From positions 1 through 64,000 of the forward strand of contig JADLAY010000007.1 in the NCBI GenBank assembly GCA_020849765.1: a stretch of DNA of 64,000 nucleotides. The letters are read 5' to 3'. The notes below the pieces were generated by a model. It was not told where the DNA came from, searched no databases, and worked only from the letters and a program-made list of their open reading frames with translations. This document shows positions 5,948 through 12,938 of the stretch, piece by piece. Each line of letters begins with the position of its first letter. Positions within the stretch are counted from its first letter, which is position 1. This DNA is from Anaerolineae bacterium. GTDB lineage: Bacteria; Chloroflexota; Anaerolineae; Aggregatilineales; Phototrophicaceae. Position numbers and translations under genes: made by a program.

Positions 5948-6808
5948 ATGGATGGATTTGCGAGTCGGATGCACGCGCGCCCCGTGCTCAAATGGGCGGG
6001 GGGCAAGGGCAGGCTGCTGCCGGAACTGCTCGGACGCCTGCCGTCGGCGTTTGGAGCGTATCATGAGCCATTCGTCGGCGGAGGCGCGCTCTTCTTCAAG
6101 CTCGCCAGCCAGGAACGCCTGGACGACGCCTTCTTCTCGGACATCAACCCGGCACTGATCGAGGTCTACATCGCGCTGCGCGACTGCGTGCAGGATGTGA
6201 TCGACATCCTGGGGCAGCACTACTACGACGAGGATTACTACTACGAAATCCGCGCCCTCGACCCGGCGACCCTGAGCCTGGCCGAGCGCGCCGCCCGCAT
6301 CATCTTCCTGAACAAGACCTGCTACAACGGCCTCTATCGCGAAAACAGTTCCGGCCAGTTCAATGTGCCGTTCGGACGCTACAAGAACCCGAAGATCTGC
6401 GACGAGCCGAACCTGCGCGCGGCTTCGTCGGCGTTGCAGCGCGTCGATCTGGAGCGGCGCCACTTCTCGACCGTTCTGGACAGCGCGCAGCCCGGCGATT
6501 TCGTCTACTTTGACCCGCCATACCAACCGCTGTCGAGCACGTCCAACTTCACGGCGTACTCAAAGGATGGATTTAGCGAGCAGGATCAGGTAAAACTGCG
6601 GGATGTCTTCGCGGAACTGACCCGGCGCGGCGTTCGCGCAATGCTCTCGAATTCCAGCGCGCCGCTGATTTACGAGTTGTACAGCCCATATGCCGTGCAC
6701 ACGGTCTATGCGGCGCGAGCGATCAACTCCAGGGCGGCTGCGCGAGGGAAAATTGCCGAAGTGATCGTCTGTAATTATGACGAAAACGGTACGTTATTGT
6801 CCGACTGA
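5948..6808 (+). CDS. Dam-family DNA adenine methyltransferase (D12 class)
   Basis: A 286-residue N6-adenine methylase. PVLKWAGGKGRLLPEL (residue about 12) and HEPFVGGGALFF form the SAM-binding site. The catalytic motif is VYFDPPYQPLS (about residue 186), and FLNKTCYNGLYREN is the family's NKT.FNGL.R segment. An ATG at 5948 gives the full length; ATG 5969 would lose seven residues before the SAM motif and is an alternative. No restriction endonuclease lies next to it, so it is probably a solitary methylase used for epigenetic or phage-related marking. The metallophosphoesterase gene follows after 29 bp. Confidence 0.92.
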   Translation: MDGFASRMHARPVLKWAGGKGRLLPELLGRLPSAFGAYHEPFVGGGALFFKLASQERLDDAFFSDINPALIEVYIALRDCVQDVIDILGQHYYDEDYYYEIRALDPATLSLAERAARIIFLNKTCYNGLYRENSSGQFNVPFGRYKNPKICDEPNLRAASSALQRVDLERRHFSTVLDSAQPGDFVYFDPPYQPLSSTSNFTAYSKDGFSEQDQVKLRDVFAELTRRGVRAMLSNSSAPLIYELYSPYAVHTVYAARAINSRAAARGKIAEVIVCNYDENGTLLSD

Positions 6809-6837: not shown

Positions 6838-7467
6838 GTGGGCCTGAGTGTGGTCAAAATACTCTGTGTAAGCGATACGATCGTATCGCAGCTTGAAAAC
6901 GCGGCGAACCTGAGGCGGCGTTATAACGACATCGATCTCGTCGTGAGTTGTGGAGATCTCTCTGCTGCGTATCTCGAATTCATCACCAGCGTCCTGAATG
7001 TGCCCCTCTTTTACGTGCGCGGCAATCACGACCTGGGTTATGACGACCGCCCGCCCGGCGGCGAAAATCTGCACGGAAAGGTGCGCAAGTTCCGCGGGTT
7101 GACCTTCTTCGGGCTGGAAGGCTCGATGCGCTACAACAACGCGGACATCCAGTACAGCGATGGCGAGATGACGACCATGGTCATGCGCATGGCGCCGCGG
7201 CTTGGCTACCGGCGCTGGCGCTACGGGCACGCCATCGACATCTTCGTGGCCCATTCGCCGCCGTTCGGCATTCACGACGCCAAAGATCTACCGCATCACG
7301 GCTTCAAGTCGTTCCTGAATTTTCTCGACTGGTATCGTCCGCGCTACATGGTGCATGGGCATATCCATACCTATGACCGGCGCGTGACGACCGTGACGGA
7401 CTATCTCGATACCCGCATCATGAATATCAACCCGTATACGATCCTGGAGATCGAGCCGGAAGTCTGA
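6838..7467 (+). CDS. Calcineurin-like metallophosphoesterase
   Basis: A 209-residue phosphoesterase. Metal-ligand motifs are VVSCGDLSAAYLEF (GD), YVRGNHDLG (GNHD), IFVAHSPPFG (H) and MVHGHIHTYDRR (GHIH). The first motif is SDTI rather than the usual D-x-H, as in a recognised subgroup that has lost this histidine. A GTG at 6838 opens the frame; a second GTG at 6850 gives VKILCVSD directly and is also plausible. It closely follows the methylase gene on the same strand. The substrate is unknown; relatives act on cyclic nucleotides or nucleotide phosphates. Confidence 0.87.
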   Translation: MGLSVVKILCVSDTIVSQLENAANLRRRYNDIDLVVSCGDLSAAYLEFITSVLNVPLFYVRGNHDLGYDDRPPGGENLHGKVRKFRGLTFFGLEGSMRYNNADIQYSDGEMTTMVMRMAPRLGYRRWRYGHAIDIFVAHSPPFGIHDAKDLPHHGFKSFLNFLDWYRPRYMVHGHIHTYDRRVTTVTDYLDTRIMNINPYTILEIEPEV

Positions 7468-7471
7468 AGCG

Positions 7472-8635
7472 TCAGCCCGCTCGCTGCCCTGGCAGCGCGG
7501 CCAATCCCAGCCCGGCGGCCAGCACCGCCAGCCCGACGATCCAGATGACGAACAGCGGCGCCAGAGCCATCTGCGTATCGAGGAAGCCGACCGTCAGCAC
7601 GCGCTCGACGTAGACCTGGACGATACCCGCCAGCAGCGCCGCGACACCGGAGACGACCGCACCGACCGCCACCCAGACGAGCGCCGCCCCGGACGGCGGC
7701 GAGGCCGCCCACGCCAGCAGGACGACGCCGAGCGCCGTCAGGAAGATGACAAGTTCGCTCAGGCCGGTGCCCGCCATGGTGGCGCCGACCTGCGGGATGG
7801 CTGCCGCCGTGCTGAGGACTCCGCCCGCGGCGATCATGCCCAGCCCCAGCGTGATCCAGCCGGGGGCGCGCGCGCCGCGCAGGGCGATGACGACGAAGAA
7901 CGGATAGGCCGCCGCGCCGATCAACCCCAACAGCAGCCCTGCCGAGCCTTCGCCGACTGCCGCCAATGGGCTGATGGCCGCCAGCGCCCCGGCGACCGCC
8001 AGCCCTGCGGGCAGCGCGAGCGACGTGCGCGGGCGCAGCTTGCTCAGGACGGCGATGGCGATGGCGCTGCCCGCGACGGCGTAGGCGATGTGGAACTTTG
8101 CACCGACGGCCAAGGCGCGCAGCACACGATCCTGCGCCGGGTTCGCCGGCGGGATCATACCCGCGATCACGCACACGATCGCCAGCGCCATGCCCAGCCA
8201 CCAGACGCTGCCCGTGGTCGTGCGCGCGACCTCGACCGTCCCGGCCAGCGCCAGCGCCGCCAGCACGATCAGGACGAGGTCGAGGATGACCGGCAGTTCG
8301 AGCAGGTAGCGGCCTTCGAGCAAATCAAGTATGGCGGCTAACAGGCTGAGGACGAGCAGCGCCGTCCAACCGCGATAGACCCACGTCAGCAGCGGCGAGC
8401 GCGCGCTGCCCGCGGCCTCGCTCAGCAGCGTCAGGCCGCCCGCCAGCAGCCCGGTCCAGATGGCGAGGTCGAGCAGGACGTTGCGTACGCCCACGATCTG
8501 GTTGTAGGGCAGCGAAACCGCCAGCGCGTCGCCGGGCAGGAACTTGACGGCGGCGAACAGGGCCGCTGCGCCATAGAGCACGAGCAGGATCGTCATCTGG
8601 GCGAACAATCGGTTGGCAAGCTGTCGTGTCGTCAT
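7472..8635 (-). CDS. NorB/haem-copper oxidase subunit I-like membrane protein lacking haem ligands
   Basis: A 387-residue, very hydrophobic protein with about 11 predicted membrane helices. The N-terminal part (LPYNQIVGVRNVLLDLAIW, about residues 42-60, then GLLAGGLTLLSE) resembles helix II of quinol or cytochrome c nitric-oxide reductase NorB. At the place where the low-spin haem His normally sits it reads R-N-V. Only one His exists in the whole protein (KFHIAYA), whereas a working subunit I needs six. It follows a NorC-like dihaem cytochrome with a 3-bp gap. I infer a redox-inert structural or quinone-binding subunit that anchors the cytochrome. The NorB relationship is by eye; a generic membrane protein is the alternative. 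Confidence 0.7.
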   Translation of the reverse strand: MTTRQLANRLFAQMTILLVLYGAAALFAAVKFLPGDALAVSLPYNQIVGVRNVLLDLAIWTGLLAGGLTLLSEAAGSARSPLLTWVYRGWTALLVLSLLAAILDLLEGRYLLELPVILDLVLIVLAALALAGTVEVARTTTGSVWWLGMALAIVCVIAGMIPPANPAQDRVLRALAVGAKFHIAYAVAGSAIAIAVLSKLRPRTSLALPAGLAVAGALAAISPLAAVGEGSAGLLLGLIGAAAYPFFVVIALRGARAPGWITLGLGMIAAGGVLSTAAAIPQVGATMAGTGLSELVIFLTALGVVLLAWAASPPSGAALVWVAVGAVVSGVAALLAGIVQVYVERVLTVGFLDTQMALAPLFVIWIVGLAVLAAGLGLAALPGQRAG

Positions 8636-8638
8636 GAG

Positions 8639-9388
8639 CTAGCTACTCGCTTCCCCGAACTGCATCAGATAGGCGATCAAGGCGTCGATGTCCGAGCTGC
8701 TGAGCAGGTCTGCGAAGTTCTTCTGCATCACGTCGGCGAAGCCTTCGACGACGTAATCGCTCGGATGCAGGATCGAGTTGCGGATGTATTCCTGCGCGCC
8801 GAGGCCGATTACGCGGTGCCATGCGCGGTCGGCGATGCCCGCCAGCGATGGGCCGGTCAGGACGACGCCGGGCTCGATCGAGTGGCAACTGGCGCAGCGC
8901 TGGCCGAAGACGGCGCGCCCGCGCGTCAGCACCGGATCTTCACCGGGGACGGCCTGGGCGACACTGGTATTGAACAGCGCGCCGCCACCCGCGACCTGCA
9001 ACGGGCGCGGCGGCCAATCCGCGGCGAAGCGGGCGCTGCTCGTCCAATCGAGCAGGGCGATCAGTTGGTCGACTTCGGTTTCGGTCAGTGTGAAGCGCGG
9101 CATCTGGCGTTGATTGGGGTGGAAGGCGCCGGGGTTGACCATGAAGGCGCGCAGGTAATCCGCGCCGCGCTGGTGGATGATGCGCGTCAGATCGGGCGCG
9201 TAGCCGCCGCCCTGGCCGTAGAGTGTGTGGCAGCCCTCGCAGCCCTGCGTCCCCCAGACAGCGAACCCGGCGCTGACGTCCTCCGGCACGGGGTCGGCCG
9301 TGGCGTTCTGCCAGGCCGCGACGACATTGACGACCACCGCCGCCAGCCCCAGCAGCAGGACGATGACGAAGATCAGCCGTCCATTCAT
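8639..9388 (-). CDS. NorC-like dihaem cytochrome c, membrane-anchored
   Basis: A 249-residue protein with one N-terminal membrane helix (residues 5-26) and two c-type haem sites: CEGCH at 50-54 and CASCH at 165-169. The first haem domain (WGTQGCEGCHTLYGQGGGY, then APDLTRIIHQRG) closely follows the NorC pattern. The second domain has GPSLAGIADRA, and candidate Met ligands are present in QMPRF and DVMQKNF. The ATG at 9388 overlaps the stop of the 42-aa gene upstream (ATGA). It would face the outer side and carry electrons to or from the membrane partner at 8635-7472. The fusion of two haem domains is larger than standard single-haem NorC. Confidence 0.85.
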   Translation of the reverse strand: MNGRLIFVIVLLLGLAAVVVNVVAAWQNATADPVPEDVSAGFAVWGTQGCEGCHTLYGQGGGYAPDLTRIIHQRGADYLRAFMVNPGAFHPNQRQMPRFTLTETEVDQLIALLDWTSSARFAADWPPRPLQVAGGGALFNTSVAQAVPGEDPVLTRGRAVFGQRCASCHSIEPGVVLTGPSLAGIADRAWHRVIGLGAQEYIRNSILHPSDYVVEGFADVMQKNFADLLSSSDIDALIAYLMQFGEASS

Positions 9389-9513
9389 ACCGCGCCCGCC
9401 CCGATCAGGCTGAGGACGACCACGGCCACCGTGTAGACGAGGGCGATCAGCAGCAGCGCAAGCGCGATCCAAACCGCCAGACGCCAGTGCCAGCGGCGCA
9501 GAAATAAGTCCAT
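9385..9513 (-). CDS. 42-aa single-helix membrane protein of the cytochrome operon
   Basis: A short frame starting at ATG 9513: basic head MDLFLRRWHWR, then one hydrophobic helix (about residues 12-38), ending GAGAV. Its stop overlaps the ATG of the NorC-like gene by four bases, strongly implying translational coupling. An AAAAAGG stretch lies about 9-15 nt upstream of the ATG. Its size and position recall the tiny accessory subunits of haem-copper oxidases such as CcoQ; that analogy is inference. Confidence 0.7.
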   Translation of the reverse strand: MDLFLRRWHWRLAVWIALALLLIALVYTVAVVVLSLIGAGAV

Positions 9514-10407: not shown

Positions 10408-10658
10408 ACCCGGCGAAGGCGGGACTGTTTTGCACTCGCCGGGGAATCAAATCCCCCGGCTCAACTTGCGCCTCCTGCGGAGGCTTATGGGCTAGCGGCG
10501 CTGGTGACTCAGTCCCCGTAGGGGACGCTTCCGTAGTCCGCCCCATTTCATGGGCGGGCGGTTCCCAAAACCGGAACACCCTCTTTCACTTATTGCTTGC
10601 TGGCGCGGGCGGGCGGTCGCTACAATACGCCGCCAAGATTGAATAGAGGTTCTTGCTC
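10408..10658. repeat. Cluster of short perfect hairpins
   Basis: Within 150 bp there are five stem-loops: 10409-10443 (CCCGGCGA/TCGCCGGG), 10441-10456 (GGGGA/TCCCC), 10470-10484 (GCCTCC/GGAGGC), 10512-10526 (GTCCCC/GGGGAC) and 10539-10556 (CGCCCcAT/ATgGGCG). They resemble the hairpin cluster at 51541-51726. One of them may terminate the DinB-like gene, though none has a T-run. Confidence 0.6.
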
Positions 10659-12938
10659 ATGCGTGACGAAAAGAAACGCCCGGCGCGCGGCTGTTTACGG
10701 ATTGCCGCCTGGGCTTTTGGCTTGCTCGGATTGCTGCTGTGCACGGTGGCGACGGCCTTCGCCTTCCTGCCCGTGCCGCAGGATACGCCGATCCCGGTGG
10801 CGGCGCAGGGCGGCGGCGCGCGCCAGGGCGACGCGGCCACGACCGGCCTGCAGCTTGAGTGGCCGCCGCTGCCGCCCGTCAATGCCGACCGGGCCGCGCT
10901 CGGACGGCTGCTGTTTTACGATCCGGCCCTGAGCGCGAACGACGACATGTCGTGCGCGACCTGCCATCATCCCGATCTCGGCTTCTCCGATGGGCGTCAG
11001 GTGGCGGTCGGCTCGCATGGCGATCTGCGCCGCAACGCGCCGTCGCTGTGGAACGTCGCCTACGCCACGTCGCTGTTCTGGGATGGGCGGGCGGCCTCGC
11101 TCGAAGAGCAGATGCTGACTCCGCTGACGGCAGAGAACGAGATGGCCGCCGATATGGCCGGTCTCGTCGCCGAGCTGGAAGACATCGACGAGTATCGCCA
11201 GCGCTTCGACGCCGCCTTCAGCGACGGCATCACCGAGCAAAACATCGCATCCGCCATCGCCGAATTCGAGCGCACGCTGATCAGCAAAAACTCGCCGTTC
11301 GACCGCTACGCCGCGGGCGATTTCAACGCGCTGACCCCGGCGCAGCGGCGCGGCTTCGACATCTTCCGCAGCGCCGAAACGCGCTGCTTCGAATGTCACG
11401 CCTGGCCGACCTTCACCCACAACACCTTCCACGCCCTCGGCGTGCCTGATCTCGACCCGGACAACCCCGACCTCGGCCAGATCGAAGTGCGCAACGCCGC
11501 CGATGCCGAGCGCGGCTTCCGCACGCCCGGCCTGCGCAACGTCGCGCTCAGCGGGCCGTACATGCACAACGGGCGCTTCGCCACGCTCGAAGATGTGATC
11601 GATTTCTATGCCGATGGTGGCGGCACCGCCTTTGGCCTGGATGCGGTGGACGTCGATGAGAAGGTCGCCGGGTTCGACATCACGCCGCAGGAAATCTCGG
11701 ATCTGATCGCGTATCTCTACGCGCTTACCGACGAGCCATCCGACCTGATCGCGATCCCGGACAGTGTGCCGTCGGGGCTGCCGATCGTCCAGCACATGGA
11801 AAACCCGGCGCGAGCGCAGGTCGAGCTGGCCGTCGCCGAGCCTTACAGCCCGGAGTCGCGCGAGCCACAGACGCTGACCGTCCACGCGGGCGAGTCGATT
11901 CAAGCGGTCGTCGATCAGGCTTTACCGGGCGATACGGTGCTGGTCGAGCCGGACGTCTACACCCAGTCGGTCTACATCGACACGCCGGGGCTGACTGTGC
12001 GCGGCATCGTCGATGGCGATGAGCGCCCGTGGCTCGACGGTGAGAACACCCGCAGCGACGGCTTCAACACCACGGGCGATGACTTTGTGCTCGAAGGCTT
12101 CGGCTTCCGCGGCTACATCGGCAACGCCGTGCTGACGACCGGCGCGGAGCGCGTCACCTACCGCGACCTGATCGTCGAGGGCACCTATGGCGACACCGAC
12201 AAGAACACGATCTATGGCATCTACCCGGTCGAGTGCACCGACGTGCTGGTCGAGAATTCGACGCTGACCGGCATCGCCGACGCGGCCATCTACGTCGGCC
12301 AGAGCCACGGGCCGATCGTCGTCCGCAGCAACACCGTCTACGGCAACGTGACCGGCATCGAGATCGAGAACAGTACCGACGCCGAGGTCTACGACAACCA
12401 CGTCTACGAGAACACGGGCGGCATCCTCGTCTTCCTACTGCCGAATAACCCGTCCAAGGTCGGCTACCGGACGCGCGTCTACAACAATCTGATCGAGAAC
12501 AACAACAATCCGAACTTCGCCAAGGAGGGCGCCATCGTCGGCCTCGTCCCGCCCGGCACCGGCATCATGATCATGACGGCGGATAACACCGAGGTCTTCG
12601 GCAACACCATTCGCGATAACCAGACGGTCGGCGTGGCGCTGACCAGCCTGTACATGGTCTACGACCGGGATACCGAGTTCGATCTCGGCCCACTGCCGGA
12701 GAACAACTACGTCTACGGCAACACCTGGGAGAATAACGGCTATGCTCCAGCGGGTGTGGTCGTAGACTTGGGCATCCCCGGCGCGGACATCCTGTGGACG
12801 GGCGAGGGCTGGAATAACGCCTTCGACGAGCCAAGTGCGAGCAAGTTCCCGCCGCTGCTGCCCGAACGAGGCTGGCCCGATCCACTCAAGCGCTTGACCT
12901 GGCGCGTCTACGACATTGTGATCGGCCTGCTGCTCTGA
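10659..12938 (+). CDS. Dihaem cytochrome c peroxidase (MauG-like) fused to right-handed beta-helix
   Basis: A 759-residue exported protein. A membrane or signal helix at about 17-37 is followed by a MauG/CcpA-type peroxidase (about 65-370). The first haem motif is CATCH at 99-103, and FSDGRQVAVG and LFWDGRAASLEEQM are family signatures. The second haem motif, CFECH, lies near residue 245, and RTPGLRNVALSGPYMHNGRF is the usual C-terminal segment. After about residue 405, HAGESIQAVVDQALPGDTVL opens a NosD-like parallel beta-helix whose coils repeat (VYDNHVYENTGG, VFGNTIRDNQ, VYGNTWENNG). The start is ATG 10659, with AGAGG about 9 nt upstream. A periplasmic or surface redox enzyme docked on a polymer- or copper-binding helix is plausible. 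It converges on the quinone reductase with no gap. Confidence 0.88.
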   Translation: MRDEKKRPARGCLRIAAWAFGLLGLLLCTVATAFAFLPVPQDTPIPVAAQGGGARQGDAATTGLQLEWPPLPPVNADRAALGRLLFYDPALSANDDMSCATCHHPDLGFSDGRQVAVGSHGDLRRNAPSLWNVAYATSLFWDGRAASLEEQMLTPLTAENEMAADMAGLVAELEDIDEYRQRFDAAFSDGITEQNIASAIAEFERTLISKNSPFDRYAAGDFNALTPAQRRGFDIFRSAETRCFECHAWPTFTHNTFHALGVPDLDPDNPDLGQIEVRNAADAERGFRTPGLRNVALSGPYMHNGRFATLEDVIDFYADGGGTAFGLDAVDVDEKVAGFDITPQEISDLIAYLYALTDEPSDLIAIPDSVPSGLPIVQHMENPARAQVELAVAEPYSPESREPQTLTVHAGESIQAVVDQALPGDTVLVEPDVYTQSVYIDTPGLTVRGIVDGDERPWLDGENTRSDGFNTTGDDFVLEGFGFRGYIGNAVLTTGAERVTYRDLIVEGTYGDTDKNTIYGIYPVECTDVLVENSTLTGIADAAIYVGQSHGPIVVRSNTVYGNVTGIEIENSTDAEVYDNHVYENTGGILVFLLPNNPSKVGYRTRVYNNLIENNNNPNFAKEGAIVGLVPPGTGIMIMTADNTEVFGNTIRDNQTVGVALTSLYMVYDRDTEFDLGPLPENNYVYGNTWENNGYAPAGVVVDLGIPGADILWTGEGWNNAFDEPSASKFPPLLPERGWPDPLKRLTWRVYDIVIGLLL

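Follow-up and report, generated by a model that had tools for sequence, protein, structure and literature searches.

The window, a 64,000-nucleotide stretch of an Anaerolineae genome, encodes a dihaem NorC-like cytochrome next to a NorB homologue whose haem and FeB ligands are all replaced. Ancestry and fold place this 'hollow NorB' (P1) in the NorB lineage, and it is not a nitric oxide (NO) reductase. In a group of Chloroflexota, an old NO reductase appears to have been put to new use as a scaffold in the membrane, serving a different redox task. The explanation that we favour, and hold to be probable by a slim balance, is that P1 is a metal-free scaffold docking the cytochrome (P2), which exchanges electrons with a MauG/MbnH-like peroxidase (P3). 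The genes concerned are the following:

7472–8635, minus strand: P1, a 387-aa, 12-helix NorB homologue ('hollow NorB') without haem/FeB ligands (profile search, ligand columns, AlphaFold2/Foldseek)
8639–9388, minus strand: P2, a 249-aa NorC-like dihaem cytochrome c (PDB matches, two CxxCH motifs)
9385–9513, minus strand: P0, a 42-aa single-helix protein (conserved ORF, dN/dS 0.32)
10653–12938, plus strand: P3, a 761-aa protein with a MauG/MbnH-like dihaem peroxidase domain and a TIGR03805 right-handed beta-helix (domain matches, co-occurrence)

The three minus-strand genes form the operon described in an earlier note on this DNA, and its coordinates, the 4-bp ATGA overlap at the P0/P2 junction and the 3-bp gap between P2 and P1 were all recovered. 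The closest relative (genome G032, locus L055) possesses all three genes, with identities of 69% for P0, 80% for P2 and 74% for P1; the corresponding dN/dS values (NG86) are about 0.32, 0.24 and 0.28. The gene order is kept in about 20 genomes, and an alignable P0-like ORF of 42–44 aa with the same P2 overlap is found at five other loci (L045, L048, L049, L055 and L056), the last of which has P0 and P2 with no P1 adjacent. At library cut-offs, neither Pfam nor NCBIfam contains a match to P0. The identity to the closest relative, the dN/dS values, the kept order and the conservation of the P0 ORF show that P0, P2 and P1 are real genes, with a negligible chance of artefact. In the same region of the window, a gene for a D12-class adenine-specific DNA methyltransferase (5948–6808) adjoins a metallophosphoesterase gene (6838–7467).

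Searched alone, P1 retrieves nothing in Pfam and NCBIfam scans or in phmmer against the PDB. A profile of its family (28 homologues) matches cNOR NorB of Roseobacter (4xyd_A, E = 1e-20) over the full length and, over the same length, that of Pseudomonas (3o0r_B, 1.9e-15); no qNOR chain is among the PDB matches of this profile with E up to 10. Profile–profile comparison with intact Chloroflexota NorB aligned 416 columns at 98.2% probability. PF00115 is matched by 0/28 family members, and the P1 of the window (P0001) is likewise without a match. An AlphaFold2 model of P1 built from 18 sequences (pLDDT 86.8, pTM 0.88) possesses 12 transmembrane helices, as does NorB, correcting the 11 counted in the earlier note. 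Foldseek ranked 4xyd_A on top (TMq 0.85), then 3o0r_B and cbb3 subunit I, all within 0.83–0.86. The 12-helix fold of haem-copper oxidase subunit I is present in P1 according to both programs, so the comparison with NorB/CcoN that had been proposed as a check places P1 among relatives of haem-copper oxidases. The NorB scaffold suggested from the sequence is thereby confirmed by three agreeing approaches: profile search, profile–profile comparison with intact NorB and predicted fold. P2 and P1 together form a NorC–NorB gene pair resembling both cNOR subunits by sequence.

Ligand columns were compared in an alignment with intact NorB P0004 and over 53 homologues, and all seven positions are replaced. 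The seven positions that we take to be the ligands in Pseudomonas NorB numbering (H60, H207, E211, H258, H259, H347 and H349) are occupied by R, G, H, S, P, V and F in the P1 of the window. At most one of the seven haem/FeB ligands is kept in any of the 53 homologues; three proteins have such a single match, by chance, and none of the 53 has a pair of histidines in the membrane core that could act as a replacement. The six histidines serving low-spin haem, high-spin haem and the second metal are thus not present in the P1 family (53 proteins), and the FeB site (three His and Glu) is absent from P1. Relatives commonly (42/53) have two histidines that align close to the cytoplasmic loop joining helices 8 and 9; the P1 of the window lacks both and has a single His in 387 residues, as had been noticed earlier. 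The accompanying claim that the three metal centres cannot be bound also stands: because all seven ligand positions are lost, P1, as judged from its sequence, is unable to coordinate haem b, haem b3 or FeB as NorB does. With these sites missing, NO reductase activity of P1–P2 would be excluded in practice.

P2 proved to be the dihaem NorC-like cytochrome that its two CxxCH motifs had suggested. Residues 6–126, a domain carrying one transmembrane helix, match NorC (3o0r_C, 7.8e-22), and residues 153–246 form a second, C-terminal cytochrome c domain, similar by eye to the cytochrome domain of caa3 subunit II encoded in the same genome. The haem sites are C50-C53-H54/M96 and C165-C168-H169/M221; the two CxxCH motifs, like the Met in either domain, do not vary among P2 sequences, and M96 and M221 presumably act as axial ligands, as is usual in the family. 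The AlphaFold2 model of P2 is of moderate quality (pLDDT 70.7, pTM 0.52) and was left out of the conclusions.

The gene for P3 is divergent from P0 and lies about 1.1 kb away, with a DinB-like gene between them. Its product possesses the two CxxCH motifs and the CCP_MauG domain (2.4e-56) of MauG/MbnH proteins, fused to a TIGR03805 beta-helix (1.9e-72), and matches MbnH in the PDB (6e1c_A, 1e-46). It remains under the NCBIfam equivalog cut-offs for TIGR03791 MauG (232 of 443.85 bits) and TIGR04039 (237 of 362.85). The Tyr of its 'DFYADGG' segment aligns with MbnH 'DIYSEGG' and with a Met of CcP; we assume that in MauG/MbnH this Tyr takes the axial position that Met would otherwise occupy on the six-coordinate haem. 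Across nine neighbourhoods, the common two-CxxCH gene downstream of P1 encodes an MbnH/MauG-like protein with TIGR03805. Counting full P2 and full or nearly full P3 from score tables (25 genomes each of 98), both are present in 24 genomes, either one alone in 1 and 1, and neither in 72 (Fisher 1.3e-20, kinship uncorrected), and common ancestry confounds such co-occurrence inside one family. P1 and P3 are no more than 5 kb apart in 15/23 genomes; in G032, the nearest relative, P3 is on a contig other than that of P1. P3 is a probable functional partner of P1–P2. The 'electron-transfer module' postulated earlier is supported for P2, and also by how nearly P2 and the MauG-like peroxidase coincide across genomes; the role of the NorB shell itself is putative.

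The genome collection of relatives was scanned with P2; the named relatives are Anaerolineae, several of them labelled Aggregatilineales. One GTDB family (Anaerolineae) is represented by 98 genomes, of which 67 encode hollow P1. A class-wide search with the P1 profile detected the hollow proteins in this single family and one genuine NorB in a different family; a phylum sample added three further genuine NorBs. The hollow proteins form one clade (support 100/100) apart from intact NorBs. Their ORF is intact in most of the 67 genomes, and dN/dS of 0.09–0.38, including P1 genes without P2, indicates purifying selection. The 98 family genomes yielded no catalytic cNOR; their few weak P0004 matches are hollow proteins or oxidase fragments. 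Whether a true oxidase always shares the genome, as had been asked, can be answered in the affirmative: a haem-copper oxidase is present in 98/98, and this is uninformative because it is universal.

Intact dihaem NorCB is encoded by G186, G479, G482 and G491, Chloroflexota outside the family of the window (loci L157–L159 and L145). All four genuine NorBs are preceded by a NorC bearing two haem motifs. The hollow module is therefore not alone in having a dihaem NorC, and the intact dihaem cNOR of other Chloroflexota is likely the ancestral type of P1–P2. Contigs C49 and C83 of the same genome as the window carry tandem pairs of short membrane proteins (137–153 aa). Such tandems are located at L003 (1486–1902 and 1860–2318) and L005 (1071–1487 and 1492–1905); three of these L003/L005 proteins match separate parts of PF00115 (COX1), hemerythrin genes adjoin the short COX1-like pair in L003, and similar short COX1 matches are seen in many relatives.

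Many genomes, including about 30 species of genus g22, encode P1 without adjacent P2 or full-length P3, and some P1 forms are shorter or truncated (341–360 aa). These orphans are under selection as well (dN/dS 0.27–0.38). In the tree they are scattered between forms that have P2, some occupy the same Trm112-side locus as complete operons, and in L144 a syntenic one-haem NorC remnant adjoins P1; together this suggests that P2 and P3 were lost repeatedly while P1 was retained under selection. As orphans exist, P1 must also do something without the cytochrome. In g22 (L126–L131) the orphan gene is a few bases from, or overlaps, a gene for a PMT_2-like membrane glycosyltransferase; this enzyme was rejected as the orphan partner, given that no homologue adjoins P1 in L140. 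The reverse situation is seen in G051 (L141), where P2 and P3 are present and P1 is either absent or survives as a fragment of 41 residues with a stop; P2/P3 therefore do not strictly depend on P1.

Conservation differs between the two faces of P1, assigned by combining the helices of the model with the topology of NorB, both termini of which are cytoplasmic. The 40 most conserved columns comprise 21 periplasmic and 19 cytoplasmic ones where P2 is adjacent, versus 6 and 34 in orphans (Fisher 7.6e-4). Because of this difference, docking of P2 seems to take place on the periplasmic face, and the cytoplasmic face seems to have a further role, lost in the lineage of the window; in the P1 of the window and close relatives the cytoplasmic loops are shortened.

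Under the scaffold explanation, P1 would be a cofactor-free descendant of cNOR NorB that arose once, probably from a dihaem cNOR, and would no longer reduce NO. It would serve as a 12-helix membrane scaffold docking P2 via the old periplasmic NorB–NorC interface, with P0 as a putative accessory helix in some lineages. P2 would relay electrons periplasmically, most likely between the respiratory chain and P3. The analysis shows homology, fold, ligand loss, gene coupling, co-occurrence, selection and the conservation of particular faces; from these we infer the physical complex, the direction of electron flow and the part of P3 as redox partner. Besides the orphans, G051, the separate contigs of G032 and the confounding by ancestry, two more points speak against this proposal: NorC has its own membrane helix, making an anchor unneeded, and MauG-type enzymes can use H2O2 without an electron donor. 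The broader idea, that a stable and wholly cofactor-free subunit I family has been reused as the core, within the membrane, of a new redox complex on the periplasmic side comprising the NorB shell, dihaem NorC and MauG-type peroxidase–beta-helix protein, is put forward tentatively, as we lean slightly against it.

A dihaem cytochrome requires an electron source, and P1 could itself provide one as a haem-free quinol-oxidising subunit of the NrfD/ActC kind, with quinol near the periplasmic face and electrons passing to the P2 haem and on to P3. qNOR relatives bind quinol, and periplasmic-side Q46, R109, Q340, E344 and R345 are conserved together with P2, E113 being nearly invariant; however, the former five residues suit NorC docking equally, and most of them are lost in orphans. 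We regard quinol oxidation as rather unlikely. It is also unlikely, in our estimate slightly more so, that the shared ancestral job of P1 is cytoplasmic or within the bilayer, such as partner docking or handling of lipid or glycosyl carriers, the cytochrome being an add-on in some lineages. The orphans do keep the cytoplasmic face (34/40 top columns, with RFS, H-x-Y-R-A-L, A-H-W and R-V-T-G motifs), and P1 adjoins the PMT_2-type glycosyltransferase in g22. On the other hand, that neighbourhood is common by descent, the P1 of the window and its close relatives keep P2 despite shortened cytoplasmic loops, the one-haem NorC remnant of L144 suggests later P2 loss, and NorC came first, since the ancestor was a cNOR.

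Fast divergence, the short or truncated versions of 341–360 aa and the lost or fragmentary P1 of G051 would fit a slowly decaying, functionless relic of a lost NO reductase, a reading that we hold to be improbable given one deep clade, ORFs intact in most of 67 genomes and dN/dS of 0.09–0.38 even with orphans counted. The fold, shared with cNOR and cbb3 subunit I, could be used to argue that P1–P2 truly reduces NO or oxygen by means of unusual metal ligands; the loss of ligand positions across 53 proteins, with no substitute His pair in the membrane core and one His in the P1 of the window, makes this extremely improbable.

Buried metal centres are what defines haem-copper oxidases and NO reductases. 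A conserved family from which every one of these centres has gone, with the fold, the cytochrome and purifying selection kept, indicates that the scaffold is reusable without its chemistry; no description of a ligand-free NorB was found in the open-access literature. Hollow NorB offers a natural test of which NorB parts serve NorC docking and which serve catalysis, and through it a MauG-like peroxidase–beta-helix fusion (TIGR03805) is tied to a specific partner in electron transfer. Annotation may mistake such genes for NO reductase or overlook them.

Compared with cNOR (3o0r, 4xyd), the P2–P1 pair shares the NorC–NorB order, the 12-helix fold, full-length similarity, the N-terminal NorC domain and the periplasmic 'GR..LE.P' and 'AGV.Q' segments of P1. 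It differs in that P1 lacks the ligands of haem b, haem b3 and FeB as well as any Pfam match, and P2 adds a second haem domain to NorC. The intact dihaem cNOR (P0004/P0005 of G186; L157–L159) likewise has a two-haem NorC followed by NorB; unlike P1, it keeps every ligand, and P0004 matches PF00115 (3.2e-68). P3 resembles MauG/MbnH and TIGR03805 proteins in being an MbnH/MauG-like domain fused to TIGR03805, and departs from MauG/MbnH in its linkage to a P1–P2 pair. NrfD/ActC-type subunits are multi-helix, cofactor-free membrane proteins adjoining a periplasmic cytochrome, an arrangement that recurs in P1–P2 with an unrelated fold.
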